This document shows positions 6,483 through 10,540 of a stretch of 64,000 bases of DNA, in pieces. The stretch lies in assembly GCF_027622855.1 (NCBI RefSeq), contig NZ_JAPZVR010000006.1, positions 248,001-312,000 on the forward strand. The letters run 5' to 3'. The notes below the pieces were generated by a model, which had not been told where the DNA came from, ran no database searches, and saw only the letters and a list, made by a program, of their open reading frames with translations. How positions within the stretch are numbered: position 1 is the first letter of the stretch; the number at the start of each line of letters is the position of its first letter. The position numbers were made by a program, and so were the translations under genes. This DNA is from Glycomyces algeriensis (GTDB taxonomy: Bacteria; Actinomycetota; Actinomycetes; Mycobacteriales; Micromonosporaceae).

Positions 6483-7472
6483 TCACGCGTTCTCGAGTGC
6501 GGCTTTCGACTCGGTGAACAGCCGCACGATCTCCGGCCGCACCTCGGCCCGCTCCGACAGCGGACCGGCCCACTGCACCCGGACCGCCACCTCGGCCCCG
6601 TCCACCAGGACCGCGAAGTCCGCGCCTTCGCCGTCGAACCCGGTCATCCGGGCCGCCTCGGCGCCGCGTTGGCCGCCCGCGCCCTGGCAGATCACGAGCG
6701 TGTCGGCCACGTGGTCGATGTTCATGTGGTGGCAGATCGCGGCGATCACCTTCGGTTCGAACGGGTTGCGGCCCAGGCCTTCGCCGAGTGCCGCGAGCAC
6801 CGCGCCGTTGTGGTCATAGGCGAGGAGGACCTCCTCGATGACGCGCGCCTTGTCGGCCTCGGGCAGGTCGACCGCGTCCAGGCGCGAGCGGTACTCCTCC
6901 TTGAACGCCTTGGGGCTCTTGATGTCCGCGAACTCGTAGAACGAGGCGCCCTCGGCCTCGAAGCCGAAGTTGCGGCGCGCGGCCTTGCCGAAGGCCTGCC
7001 CGCCCGAGAGGTCGCCGAGGTAGCGGGTGTACGCGTGGGCGATGTAGCCGCCGGGCCAGTCGGCCGAGACCGCGTCGATCCGGTCCACGTAGGCGCGCGT
7101 CGCCGGGAGCGGTTCGATGCCGGAGCGCCACTTCGGTCCCATCAGGAATCGCAGGTCCGCTTCGAGCGCGGGAACGCGCGCCAGCTCGGGGAACACGAAC
7201 GGGCCCGCCACCGCGTCGTCGGCGAACCGCGCGGCCGCGGCCTCGATCGCCTCGTACACGAAGTACTGCTGGGCGTGCCAGCGCGTGTAGTCGTCCACGC
7301 TCAGCGAGCCGTCGAAGAGCCGGTCGAACACGCCCGGGTCCTTGACCGCGTCCGCGTCGGCCGACGGGTCGAGGCCTTGGTGGCGCGACCAGGAGGCCTC
7401 GCGGATCCGGGCCGAGAAGAGGGGCGCCCCGGCGTCGGCCGGGCCGTTCGCAGCGGCGGTGTCAGCAGGCAT
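6483..7472 (-). CDS. Heme oxygenase with C-terminal DUF2470 domain
   Basis: A 329-residue cytoplasmic protein that would open heme to biliverdin, CO and iron. Residues about 20-235 are the heme oxygenase fold: an N-terminal region containing SWSRHQGLDP, then YIAHAYTRYLGDLSGGQAFGK, which carries the conserved distal-helix GDLSGG glycines. Residues about 245-329 are a DUF2470 domain (CHHMNIDHVADTLVICQ), a small module linked to heme or iron proteins. ATG 7472 has AAGGA eight bases upstream. A 15-of-19 match to the IdeR/DmdR iron box lies 39 to 57 bases before the start, so expression is probably induced by iron limitation for iron salvage from heme. No heme importer is adjacent. Confidence 0.9.
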   Translation of the reverse strand: MPADTAAANGPADAGAPLFSARIREASWSRHQGLDPSADADAVKDPGVFDRLFDGSLSVDDYTRWHAQQYFVYEAIEAAAARFADDAVAGPFVFPELARVPALEADLRFLMGPKWRSGIEPLPATRAYVDRIDAVSADWPGGYIAHAYTRYLGDLSGGQAFGKAARRNFGFEAEGASFYEFADIKSPKAFKEEYRSRLDAVDLPEADKARVIEEVLLAYDHNGAVLAALGEGLGRNPFEPKVIAAICHHMNIDHVADTLVICQGAGGQRGAEAARMTGFDGEGADFAVLVDGAEVAVRVQWAGPLSERAEVRPEIVRLFTESKAALENA

Positions 7473-7510
7473 GTGCGCATTCCTTATCGAACAACGATCA
7501 TATTCTTGAG

Positions 7511-7529
7511 TAAGGCGAGCCTAACCTAC
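7511..7529 (-). promoter_or_regulatory. IdeR/DmdR-type iron box for the heme oxygenase gene
   Basis: Read on the minus strand the 19-mer GTAGGTTAGGCTCGCCTTA matches the consensus TTAGGTTAGGCTAACCTAA at 15 of 19 positions, with the first half nearly perfect. It lies in the promoter region of the heme oxygenase gene. Iron-dependent repression is inferred from the established IdeR/DtxR operator. Confidence 0.75.
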
Positions 7530-7745
7530 ATGAGTGCGCACGGGTAGGCGTACGAACTCCCGACCCGTCAGCAAGGCCGCCGCGGCCATCGGTGAGAATG
7601 GTATGAGCCGTGCTCACCCGCGCGGCTGAACCAGAAAGAGCACGAGAATCACGGTCGCAAGCCTTCCCCAGGGAGAGCGGACTGTGGCACCATGGGCTCT
7701 ACTGGTCCCCTTGACAGCACATTCCCACACCTCACGGGAGGCCTC

Positions 7746-7979
7746 GTGAAACCGGTCAGACTACTCAAGCGGTTCGGCGCTGCCATTGCCGCGGGTCTCC
7801 TTGCGCTCGGCCTTATCGCTGGCACCGCCACCGCGGCAAGCGCCGGCGGCGGCTCCGGTGAGATCTCAGCCGGGGGCGGCTCCGGCGAGATCTCCGCCGA
7901 GGGCGGCGGTTCGGGCGAGATCTCCGGCGGCTCCGGCGAGATCTCCGCGGTCCCGCTCGGCTCGGGCGAAATCAGCTAA
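7746..7979 (+). CDS. Small secreted peptide with five GSGEIS repeats
   Basis: A 77-residue protein of unknown function. GTG 7746 is chosen because GGGAGG lies four bases upstream; the in-frame ATG at 7692 lacks one. Residues 1-33 are a clear signal peptide (KRF basic start, hydrophobic core, TATAASA cleavage site). The mature part is only 44 residues: GGGSGEISA, GGGSGEISAE, GGGSGEIS, GGSGEISAVPL and a final GSGEIS that ends the protein. The mature peptide has no Cys, Lys or Arg and is acidic. The next gene, a membrane GGDEF-EAL protein, starts 29 bp later on the same strand, so the two are probably co-transcribed. It may be a processed signal, a linker-like surface peptide or a structural secretion product; I do not recognise the family. 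Confidence 0.7.
   Translation: MKPVRLLKRFGAAIAAGLLALGLIAGTATAASAGGGSGEISAGGGSGEISAEGGGSGEISGGSGEISAVPLGSGEIS
7845..7976 (+). repeat. Tandem GSGEIS-coding repeats
   Basis: Five copies of an 18-base core coding Gly-Ser-Gly-Glu-Ile-Ser within 132 bases. Copies 1 to 4 use GAGATCTC for Glu-Ile-Ser and so each contain a BglII-like AGATCT core; the last copy uses GAAATCAGC. Spacers code for one to five residues. Confidence 0.85.
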
Positions 7980-8008
7980 CGCCGAGGTCCGAACATGGTC
8001 GACGCACG

Positions 8009-10540
8009 ATGCCGGTGAGCAGGAACCGCGAACGCACGCTGTTCCGGGTCATGCCCCGCGTGATCACCGGCCTCATGCTTGCCATCGCCGTCAGCGGCCT
8101 GGTCTACTTCGGGCCGCCGGCGACCTACCCCGTGCTGCAGCTGGCGGTGTTCATCACCGCCTTCTTCGTCGCCCAAGGACTGCTGGTCCAGCATGAGGCC
8201 CGCGGGATGCGGATCTCGTTCAACCTCACCGACATCCCGCTGGTCATCGCGCTGTTCTACCTGCCCCCGTTCTGGGTGGTGGCGACCAAGTTCCTCGCGG
8301 CGTCGCTGTTCTATGGCAAGCGCTACGTCCGCGAGGACATCGGCCTGCTCAAGCCGCTGTTCAACAGCGGGCTGACCGCCGCCGGCACCACCATGGCGGC
8401 GTTCTACGTGAGCTACATGGGCCTCGGTCCGGCCACGTCGGCCCGCACCTGGCTGATCCTGGTGTCGGCGATCGTCATCACCGGGCTGTTCACCACGGTC
8501 TTCATCTCACTGATGCTGTTCTTCATCTCCGGATGGGACAGCGTCGTCAAGGCCTGGATCGGCTTCGCGCTCACCATGGTCGGGCCCGTCCTCGCCGCGT
8601 GCGTGGGCCTGATGTTCCTGGTCCTGCTCGACGCCTCGATGTGGACCTCCATGCTCATCGGGCTCGTCGTGATCGCCTTCACGTATCTCGCCCGCAGCTA
8701 CATGGTCCTGCGGCGCCAGCGCCAGGTCCTGCGCGAACTCAACGACTTCACGCAGCTGGTGGTGGATTCGGTGCGCTCCAAGCGACTCATCGACGCCATG
8801 CTCGGGCGGCTGCGCGACATCCTGGCCGCCGAGTCGGCGACCGTGTGGGTGCCCGAGGCCGGGCGGTACCCGCAGATCCGGCTCACCTCCACACTGGACG
8901 ACGCCGGGCTCACCGACCTCGACCCGATCCCCGACGCGCTCCAGCGCGAGGTCATGGATTCGGGCAGGGGCCTGCTCCTCAGTCCGACGAACGGCACCCG
9001 CGAGCAGAAGGCCGTCCTCGAGGAGGCCGGACTGCGCGGCGCCATGCTCGTCCCGCTCCGCTCCGGCGACGAGGTCTACGGATGTCTGTCCGTGGCCGAC
9101 CGGATCGGCGGCGAGATCTCCCATTTCGTGCCGGTCGACCTGCAGCTGATGGAGACCATCGCCGCGAACGTCGGCATCGCCGTCCAGAACGAGCGCCTCC
9201 TCGACCAGCTCCGCTACGACGCCTACCACGACCCGCTGACCGGCCTCCCCAGTCGCCGCCGCTCGCTCGCGGCGCTCCAGGAGGCCCTCTCCATCACCGT
9301 GCCCGGCGAGGTCGTCGCCGTCTTCATGTTCGATGTGGACTCGCTCCACGAGATCAACGACGCCCTCGGCCACGAGGCCGGGGACACCGCGCTCAAGGAG
9401 TTCGCCAAGCGCCTCAAGGACCACGCCCCCGCCGCGTCGTTCCTCGGCCGCATCGACTCCGACGAGTTCATCCTCCAGACCCGCCTCGCCTCCACGGACG
9501 AAGCGCTCGACACCGCGCGGCGCCTGCGCGCCGCCGTCCAGGGGCCGTTCGAGGTCGGCGGCGTCGCCGTGAGCCTCTCTGCGGCCGTCGGCGTCGTCAC
9601 GCACCCGGACTTCGCCGCCGACGCCGACGAGCTCCTCAAGCGCGCGGACGGCGCCACCAGGCAGGCCAAGAACGCCGCGGACGGCGTGCAGCTCTACCAT
9701 TCCGGCCTCGAATCCGAGAGCCTGCGCCGCATCGGCCTCGCCGCCGACCTGCGCCGGGCCCTCGACCGCGGCCAGCTCGAAGTGCACTTCCAGCCGAAGG
9801 TCCGCCTCGACCGCGCCCTCGGCGACCCCGGCGCGGTCCTGGGTGCCGAAGCGCTCGTGCGCTGGCCGCACCCGACGTTCGGGCTCGTCGCCCCGGAGGA
9901 GTTCATCCCGATCGCCGGGTCGACCGGGCAGCTCGGGCAGCTCACCGAGATGGTCCTGGACGAGGCCCTGCGGCGCTCGGCCGAGTGGGCCGGCGAGGAC
10001 GGGCCGCTGCCGATGGCGGTGAACCTGTCGCCGCGCACGCTCGCGGACGCGGACTTCCCGGACAAGGTCGCAATGCTCCTGGAGCGGCACGGGGTCCCGG
10101 CGGAGCGGTTGACGTTCGAGATCACCGAGGACGACGTGGTCTCGGGGGAGCCGCGGCTCACGCCGGCGCTCGACCGGCTGCACGAGATGGGCGTGCGCCT
10201 CTCGGTGGACGACTTCGGCACCGGGTACTCCTCGCTGGCGTACCTGCGGCGGCTGCCGGTGCAGGAGATCAAGATCGACCTGCGTTTCGTGCAGGGCATG
10301 GCGACCGACGCGGACGACCGCGCGATCGTGGAGGCGGTCCTGGGCCTGGCCCGGCACTTCGCGATCGACGTCGTCGCCGAGGGCATCGAGGCCCACCAGA
10401 CCGTCGAGCAGCTGCGCGAGCTGCAGTGCGAGGCCGGTCAGGGCTACTACTTCTCGCGTCCGCTGCCGGCCGACCGGTTCGCCGCGTGGCTCTCCCAGCA
10501 GGACGGCGGGCGCGGTCAGAGCCGTCTTCGGGTGGTCTGA
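8009..10540 (+). CDS. Membrane GGDEF-GAF-EAL cyclic di-GMP protein
   Basis: An 843-residue protein. Residues about 12-232 form six or seven membrane helices (a MASE-like sensor), about 245-395 a GAF-like domain, about 400-565 a GGDEF domain and about 575-840 an EAL domain. The GGDEF signature is degenerate: GRIDSDEF at about 478 replaces GG(D/E)EF, so cyclase activity is doubtful. The EAL side keeps its catalytic set: AEALVRW (about 613), NLSPRTL, FEITEDD, DDFGTGYSS (about 734), IKID, AEGIE and GQGYYFSRP. It is most likely a c-di-GMP phosphodiesterase with a GTP-sensing or inactive GGDEF. The start is uncertain: ATG 8009 lacks a strong ribosome site and could be coupled to the peptide gene 29 bp upstream. 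Confidence 0.88.
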   Translation: MPVSRNRERTLFRVMPRVITGLMLAIAVSGLVYFGPPATYPVLQLAVFITAFFVAQGLLVQHEARGMRISFNLTDIPLVIALFYLPPFWVVATKFLAASLFYGKRYVREDIGLLKPLFNSGLTAAGTTMAAFYVSYMGLGPATSARTWLILVSAIVITGLFTTVFISLMLFFISGWDSVVKAWIGFALTMVGPVLAACVGLMFLVLLDASMWTSMLIGLVVIAFTYLARSYMVLRRQRQVLRELNDFTQLVVDSVRSKRLIDAMLGRLRDILAAESATVWVPEAGRYPQIRLTSTLDDAGLTDLDPIPDALQREVMDSGRGLLLSPTNGTREQKAVLEEAGLRGAMLVPLRSGDEVYGCLSVADRIGGEISHFVPVDLQLMETIAANVGIAVQNERLLDQLRYDAYHDPLTGLPSRRRSLAALQEALSITVPGEVVAVFMFDVDSLHEINDALGHEAGDTALKEFAKRLKDHAPAASFLGRIDSDEFILQTRLASTDEALDTARRLRAAVQGPFEVGGVAVSLSAAVGVVTHPDFAADADELLKRADGATRQAKNAADGVQLYHSGLESESLRRIGLAADLRRALDRGQLEVHFQPKVRLDRALGDPGAVLGAEALVRWPHPTFGLVAPEEFIPIAGSTGQLGQLTEMVLDEALRRSAEWAGEDGPLPMAVNLSPRTLADADFPDKVAMLLERHGVPAERLTFEITEDDVVSGEPRLTPALDRLHEMGVRLSVDDFGTGYSSLAYLRRLPVQEIKIDLRFVQGMATDADDRAIVEAVLGLARHFAIDVVAEGIEAHQTVEQLRELQCEAGQGYYFSRPLPADRFAAWLSQQDGGRGQSRLRVV

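Follow-up and report, generated by a model that had tools for sequence, protein, structure and literature searches.

We describe a gene pair in a 64,000-nucleotide stretch of the Glycomyces algeriensis genome (contig NZ_JAPZVR010000006.1, positions 248,001 to 312,000; the window), in which a small open reading frame (ORF) for a repeat peptide is followed by the gene of a membrane enzyme of cyclic diguanosine monophosphate (c-di-GMP) metabolism. Judging from sequence comparisons and a structural model, the small ORF probably encodes an exported peptide signal that is read by the sensor domain of the adjacent enzyme. Four features found by computation are, taken together, characteristic of a ligand-receptor pair: the adjacency of the genes, repeat units that are homogenized within each precursor, covariation of these units specifically with the sensor domain, and exchange of unit and sensor between species as a matched block. 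The original prediction, that a processed, exported signal is sensed by the membrane domain of the enzyme, is supported computationally by this specific covariation and by the predicted S-component-like fold of that domain.

The small ORF (7746-7979, forward strand) has 77 codons from a GTG start to the stop at 7977-7979, and its translation is VKPVRLLKRFGAAIAAGLLALGLIAGTATAASA followed by GGGSGEISAGGGSGEISAEGGGSGEISGGSGEISAVPLGSGEIS. As originally described, a signal peptide, which we assigned together with its cleavage site by hydropathy and by eye, precedes a mature part of 44 residues carrying five exact GSGEIS units, the fifth being the C terminus itself. Translation also bears out the description of a Cys-free, acidic peptide, the mature part having six Glu and no Lys or Arg. 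An alternative in-frame ATG lies at 7692, and GTG 7746 was chosen because a VKP or VNP start is present in all 21 Glycomyces loci compared. No family in Pfam or NCBIfam matches the peptide at E ≤ 1, and the search for a second genomic copy gave none that is convincing, the next match (E 0.036) falling within an open frame of 584 amino acids. We defined a presence rule as a signal peptide combined with either a C-terminal 6-mer that occurs more than once or a terminal W-x. The peptide is the sole match to this rule in the window, and the rule is matched at the locus in 43 of 79 related loci versus 8 matches elsewhere in 833,061 bases, on which grounds coincidence was rejected. Consensus scans of 7450-8100 found neither terminator-like nor sigma-70-type promoter-like sites.

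The enzyme ORF starts at ATG 8009, 29 bp past the peptide ORF, which confirms the membrane GGDEF-EAL gene described there and adds a GAF domain to it. Its EAL domain (Pfam E 2.3e-69) has the catalytic motifs in the motif table, which lists 52 of 94 aligned proteins, and the protein is a predicted c-di-GMP phosphodiesterase; an intact GG(D/E)EF, by which a diguanylate cyclase would be recognized, is absent and replaced by RIDSDEF. GAF, GGDEF, and EAL are the only Pfam families found at E ≤ 1, so that nothing points to a histidine kinase. The model of the sensor domain resembles the S-components of energy-coupling factor (ECF) transporters, a solute-binding fold, at the low identity of 9-16% for RibU, ThiT, BioY, and FolT, in a comparison that lists no fold as excluded. 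The sensor is thus predicted to have a fold whose relatives bind small molecules. Family PF07694 (5TMR_LYT) does not match the window protein at E ≤ 1, nor is it among the 25 of 30 Pfam families listed for 26 relatives.

Conservation and linkage in relatives had been named beforehand as the point on which the prediction could fail; we found the pair, like the enzyme itself, in all 22 Glycomyces genomes and the pair at most of the family loci compared. One of these genomes, that of L092, is split over contigs; at the other 21 loci, whose 5' end is complete, 20-51 bp separate the end of the peptide ORF from the aligned enzyme start. The C-terminal unit takes 16 forms among 21 Glycomyces species (including GSGEIS, GSGEIA, VSGEIN, GSGELN, SSGEVA, NSSDIG, NSADVG, and NSGDLQ), five of which are each common to two species. 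The unit is the end of the ORF in 21 of 21 loci, and in L092 two further residues follow. At least two units, separated by variable linkers, are present in 20 species, and the mean unit identity is 0.93 within a precursor versus 0.54 between species. None of 2000 shuffles came up to the observed value. Some sequences that are not units also fitted the unit pattern, so that the figure for identity within a precursor is too low rather than too high. Some arrays contain two versions, part GSGEIS and part GSGELS in L015 and L016 and SSGEFA with SSGEVN in L028, where perhaps one unit type is replacing another.

The enzyme occurs in 145 of 150 genomes of the Micromonosporaceae family. Upstream of it, outside Glycomyces, the rule finds a small ORF, with predicted export and a Trp-centered core, in 51 of 58 and 56 of 60 loci of two sets that share many organisms; the background windows of these sets gave 4 matches in 890 and 21 in 2468. 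Sorted by eye, nine of the 11 loci missed by the rule show such a peptide (L032, L053, L061, L063, L074, L104, L148, L178, and L179), that of L032 without a clear signal peptide, and two (L030 and L153) have no upstream core peptide by rule or eye. The cores, such as DFEWN, DIIWT, DVIWN, and DYSWG, are single or repeated, with three copies of DHEWH in Stackebrandtia albiflava and six of DYSWG in Micromonospora sp. 15K316. By eye, just 8 of the 58 precursors of the second set with a picked core repeat it; cores were picked by their Trp for this count, for the tail count below, and for the covariation tests outside Glycomyces, so that an invariant Trp is built into these results. The ORF stops with the core in 25 of these precursors and continues into a tail in 33, and the tail begins with Ala-Pro or Met-Pro in 23 of the 33 (loci L129-L184), possibly a signal for a processing protease. 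Among loci from the remaining families of the order, the rule matches 2 of 16, and two more peptides were recognized by eye (L076 and L080). The original reading is refined in one point: GSGEIS is the version of this species within a wider family whose usual core is xxxWx.

The covariation is specific to the sensor domain of the enzyme. Among 20 Glycomyces species, core distance correlates with sensor-domain distance (r 0.778) and less with the GAF domain (0.522) and the signal peptide (0.252), but not with GGDEF (0.029), EAL (-0.026), or the flanking genes, for which heme oxygenase gives 0.019 and the three genes downstream give 0.083, 0.107, and -0.041; EAL distance tracks the flanking genes (0.715 to 0.899). 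Given six controls, the partial correlation of core and sensor is 0.674 (p 0.0002), with the reservation, valid for all our permutation p-values on distance matrices, that some effects of relatedness are kept. The covariation recurs more weakly in the relatives of Micromonospora. In a group of 46 loci, which omits 12 of the 58, the core correlates with sensor (0.54), GAF (0.46), GGDEF (0.142), and EAL (0.159), the partial correlation being 0.370 for the sensor (p 0.0005) and 0.078 for GAF (p 0.08), and all 58 non-Glycomyces loci give a sensor partial of 0.359 (p 0.0005). L153 and L179, which have no picked core, were left out of this test, and for L144 a core from the other reading frame was entered manually. 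At the residue level, Thr/Ala at positions 74 and 127 seems to covary with core position 4 among 21 species, too small a sample to support contact claims.

The trees of 21 Glycomyces species point in the same direction, as the sensor tree differs from the catalytic tree. Core position 4 changes once on the sensor tree versus five times on the catalytic tree and core position 1 four versus 12 times; whole cores show little difference (15 versus 16 changes). The six species with D-type cores form a clade in the sensor tree (support 95/95), a grouping that the catalytic data reject (approximately unbiased test, p-AU 6e-56). The same holds for L014 and L019 (p 1.4e-4). The pair L011 and L018 is likewise rejected by the catalytic data (p 0.004); it is no clade in the best sensor tree, although the sensor data do not reject it (p 0.21). 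These groups were named from their cores after the sensor distances had been seen.

In Glycomyces, the 150 nucleotides directly upstream of the peptide gene agree with the catalytic tree (r 0.871) but not with the core (0.056). The DNA of the signal peptide has mixed affinities (0.463 to the catalytic part, 0.26 to the core), so that the exchanged zone extends approximately from the mature peptide through the sensor. It is improbable that the peptide is a signal with another receptor, sensed for example after re-import, and that the enzyme is merely co-expressed, the covariation arising through one exchanged physical block. The covarying region is contiguous, so that linkage alone yields some correlation, but signal-peptide DNA correlates with the sensor at 0.382 versus 0.768 for the core in the same ORF. 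The correlation moreover does not decay along the sensor, where residues 15-64, the block closest to the peptide, give r 0.655 and stay below the best block (121-180, r 0.771), and linkage to this sensor type persists across orders despite different precursor architecture. Linkage alone was rejected as an explanation on the behavior of the upstream DNA, the signal-peptide DNA, and the nearest sensor block.

The mosaic is also visible between close relatives. Micromonospora arida (core FDFVWT) and M. noduli (core IDLIWT) share an identical EAL domain (residues 570-820), and 46% of the residues differ between their sensor domains, with DNA identity of 59-68% over the first kilobase (kb) of the enzyme gene and 95-100% past 1.2 kb; further upstream their DNA is unrelated, so that the upstream boundary cannot be placed in this pair. 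Between M. orduensis and Micromonospora sp. ALFpr18c, related DNA (up to 91%) resumes 1.2-2 kb upstream. Toxin-immunity loci, too, typically exchange matched alleles between species, and such exchange would suit polymorphic antagonism or kin recognition, with the peptide acting on non-kin cells and the adjacent membrane domain providing immunity or self-recognition. We regard this as very improbable: in the sequences checked, an intact c-di-GMP enzyme is the partner, the peptides are short, those of Glycomyces being acidic and hydrophilic, and family searches of these proteins gave no toxin-family match.

A profile of the sensor domain matches 47 of 296 genomes of the class, at 94 places. Upstream DNA was retrieved for forty of these matches, of which 39 belong to other orders and the remaining one to the same order. 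Inspection by eye shows a repeat peptide, or a protein with a repeat tail, upstream in 23 of the 39 loci and none at the same-order locus. Nine of the 23 are short ORFs; in the other 14 the repeats form the tail of a large ORF, whose product in every case matches Peptidase_S8 (E at most 4e-37). Within a genome the arrays are rather uniform, among them tails such as (GAGWR)n, and they reach up to 22 units (4-mer counts: GAGW 22, GLTW 9, GLRW 11, GSQW 13, and GSTW 10; GASL 18 in a short peptide). An extra ORF separates tail and enzyme in L216, and the array of L217 is cut by the contig end. The fusion of array and protease in one protein suggests that the subtilase may cut the array. L232 (2360-3802), L242, L245, L246, L248, and nine other class loci encode such subtilases, predicted to be exported, with near-perfect Trp-centered tandem tails, which may combine precursor and maturation protease in one protein.

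Two of these arrays bear on whether the repeats are structural and have nothing to do with the enzyme, as in a surface protein or a solenoid of pentapeptide repeats: (GASLT)18 of L220 matches Pfam Pentapeptide (E 1.8e-30) and the L246 tail matches GETHR pentapeptide repeats (E 6.3e-8). The window peptide has no match to the Pentapeptide repeat family in Pfam at E ≤ 1, however, a solenoid is impossible in the family precursors that do not repeat their core, the linkers between Glycomyces units vary, and the peptides are linked to and covary with the sensor. The solenoid was rejected, most family precursors carrying one core, and such a structural role seems extremely unlikely.

The long arrays and the exported-subtilase fusions are also hard to reconcile with one-to-one docking. 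Small membrane proteins dock on some sensor kinases, for example MgrB on PhoQ, and the peptide could likewise be a tethered accessory subunit, with an uncleaved signal anchor and a C-terminal motif that docks in cis on the sensor of the same cell, so that no diffusible signal exists. Adjacency and covariation suit docking as well as a free ligand, and many Micromonospora precursors have just 40-55 residues or so, with the core soon past the hydrophobic stretch. Glycomyces precursors, on the other hand, carry a typical ASA site, and we consider tethering unlikely.

For the exported signal we propose the following course. The small ORF would be a multi-copy precursor, from which Sec export and then proteolysis would free several short linear peptides, with GSGEIS or SGEIS as the released core in G. 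algeriensis. The peptide would be bound outside the membrane by the S-component-like sensor domain of the adjacent enzyme, and binding would be relayed via a long helix and the GAF domain to EAL, altering c-di-GMP breakdown and, probably, development. The pairs would form pherotypes, core and sensor being swapped between species as a matched block, and upstream region and catalytic domains staying with the species. We infer expression, export, cleavage, binding, the direction of the enzyme response, and the biological output, the last two from what excerpts of PMC6205966 say on the part played by c-di-GMP in the development of actinomycetes.

The Firmicutes have peptide pheromone-receptor pherotype systems, ComX-ComP and AIP-AgrC, in which, as here, a precursor gene (export is predicted for ours) adjoins the gene of a polytopic membrane receptor, and peptide and membrane domain are matched in polymorphism and the catalytic part is conserved. 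By analogy our pair would work like these systems, yet it is a member of neither because its receptor is a c-di-GMP enzyme and not a histidine kinase; its sensor has a predicted S-component fold, its precursor is often multi-copy and apparently unmodified, and no dedicated processing gene was seen beside the pair in Glycomyces. Yeast alpha-factor, like other multi-copy precursors, has several identical units per exported precursor, kept alike within a species as here, but the likeness is one of analogy only, the present precursor being bacterial and showing no dibasic sites. The ECF S-components share the predicted membrane fold of the sensor at low identity, and unlike them the present domain is fused to GAF-GGDEF-EAL.

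Closer in architecture is the 5TMR cluster (PF07694), S-component-fold receptors for which GGDEF and EAL fusions are reported (excerpts of PMC11109136). It shares with our enzyme a predicted S-component-like membrane domain fused to cytosolic signaling domains; the window protein differs in lacking a PF07694 match and in its pairing with a peptide gene, a peptide ligand not being mentioned for the cluster in those excerpts. RmdB of Streptomyces, a six-transmembrane GGDEF-EAL protein acting as a phosphodiesterase in a sporulating actinomycete, resembles the window enzyme by description, but in the excerpts of PMC6205966 its architecture has no GAF domain and no peptide partner is mentioned. The same excerpts say of ten Streptomyces venezuelae c-di-GMP enzymes that the signals perceived by their PAS, PAC, and GAF domains remain unknown.

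On the wider question we give roughly even chances to a widespread new class of cell-cell signaling in Actinomycetes, in which short linear peptides from multi-copy precursors would be sensed by S-component-fold domains with direct control of c-di-GMP, matched cassettes recombining between species and giving each species or strain a private developmental signal, with subtilase-fused, perhaps self-released tails in some orders. Peptide signaling with pherotypes is itself already known; the ligand family is new, the sensor family uncatalogued, and the output unusual, and we found no earlier description of such pairs in the open-access PMC literature. In sporulating actinomycetes c-di-GMP acts as the switch for development, little is known of the outside signals behind it, and the locus supplies an easily synthesized candidate ligand (a linear peptide of five or six residues), a defined sensor domain, and natural specificity variants as controls. 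If the proposal is true, peptide signaling would be tied directly to a c-di-GMP enzyme, the S-component fold would gain a peptide ligand, and it could become possible to switch development, and perhaps antibiotic production, on or off in Micromonospora, Salinispora, Actinoplanes, and Glycomyces.

Table 1. Features of the peptide-enzyme locus, in window positions.
Feature	Position	Strand	Basis
Heme oxygenase with DUF2470 domain, divergent from peptide gene	6483-7472	-	Pfam
Shine-Dalgarno-like GGGAGG, 4 bases 5' of peptide GTG	7736..7741	+	by eye
Multi-copy peptide precursor (export predicted), 77 codons, GTG	7746..7979	+	translation; kept in 22/22 genus genomes
Predicted Sec signal peptide, 33 residues, ending ATAASA	7746..7844	+	hydropathy and by eye
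GSGEIS unit 1	7851..7868	+	translation
GSGEIS unit 2	7878..7895	+	translation
GSGEIS unit 3	7908..7925	+	translation
GSGEIS unit 4	7929..7946	+	translation
GSGEIS unit 5, C-terminal	7959..7976	+	translation; other 20 complete genus loci likewise end in a unit
29-bp spacer from peptide ORF to enzyme ORF, without terminator-like site	7980..8008	+	consensus scan
Membrane GAF-GGDEF-EAL enzyme, predicted c-di-GMP phosphodiesterase	8009..10540	+	Pfam and motif table
Membrane sensor domain, about residues 15-250, S-component-like predicted structure, covaries with peptide core	8051..8758	+	model and distance correlations
GAF domain, residues 260-392	8786..9184	+	Pfam
GGDEF domain, degenerate motif, residues 405-556	9221..9676	+	Pfam and motif table
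EAL domain, catalytic motifs present, residues 579-818	9743..10462	+	Pfam and motif table

The heme oxygenase gene adjoins the peptide gene in 19 of 20 Glycomyces sequences compared, and genes for tRNA-Thr and tRNA-Met lie downstream of the enzyme gene. Several other-order genomes (L188-L214 and L215-L254) have up to six sensor-domain genes each, and one genome (G366) has two sensor loci with related yet different peptide ends, RRWI and HRWS; several sensor-peptide sets per genome could form parallel channels. The repeat peptides upstream of the enzyme in L032, L080, and L221 (DADWQ, GGSWT, and TPGTGWH) show no obvious signal peptide; they may leave the cell by a different route or begin at another start. 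In the window, between 7984 and 8018, a GAGG lies 7 bases 5' of ATG 7995, which opens a 7-codon ORF that stops (TGA 8016-8018) within the first codons of the enzyme. The enzyme start at 8009 has no close Shine-Dalgarno sequence, and the mini-ORF possibly provides translational coupling to the enzyme gene.

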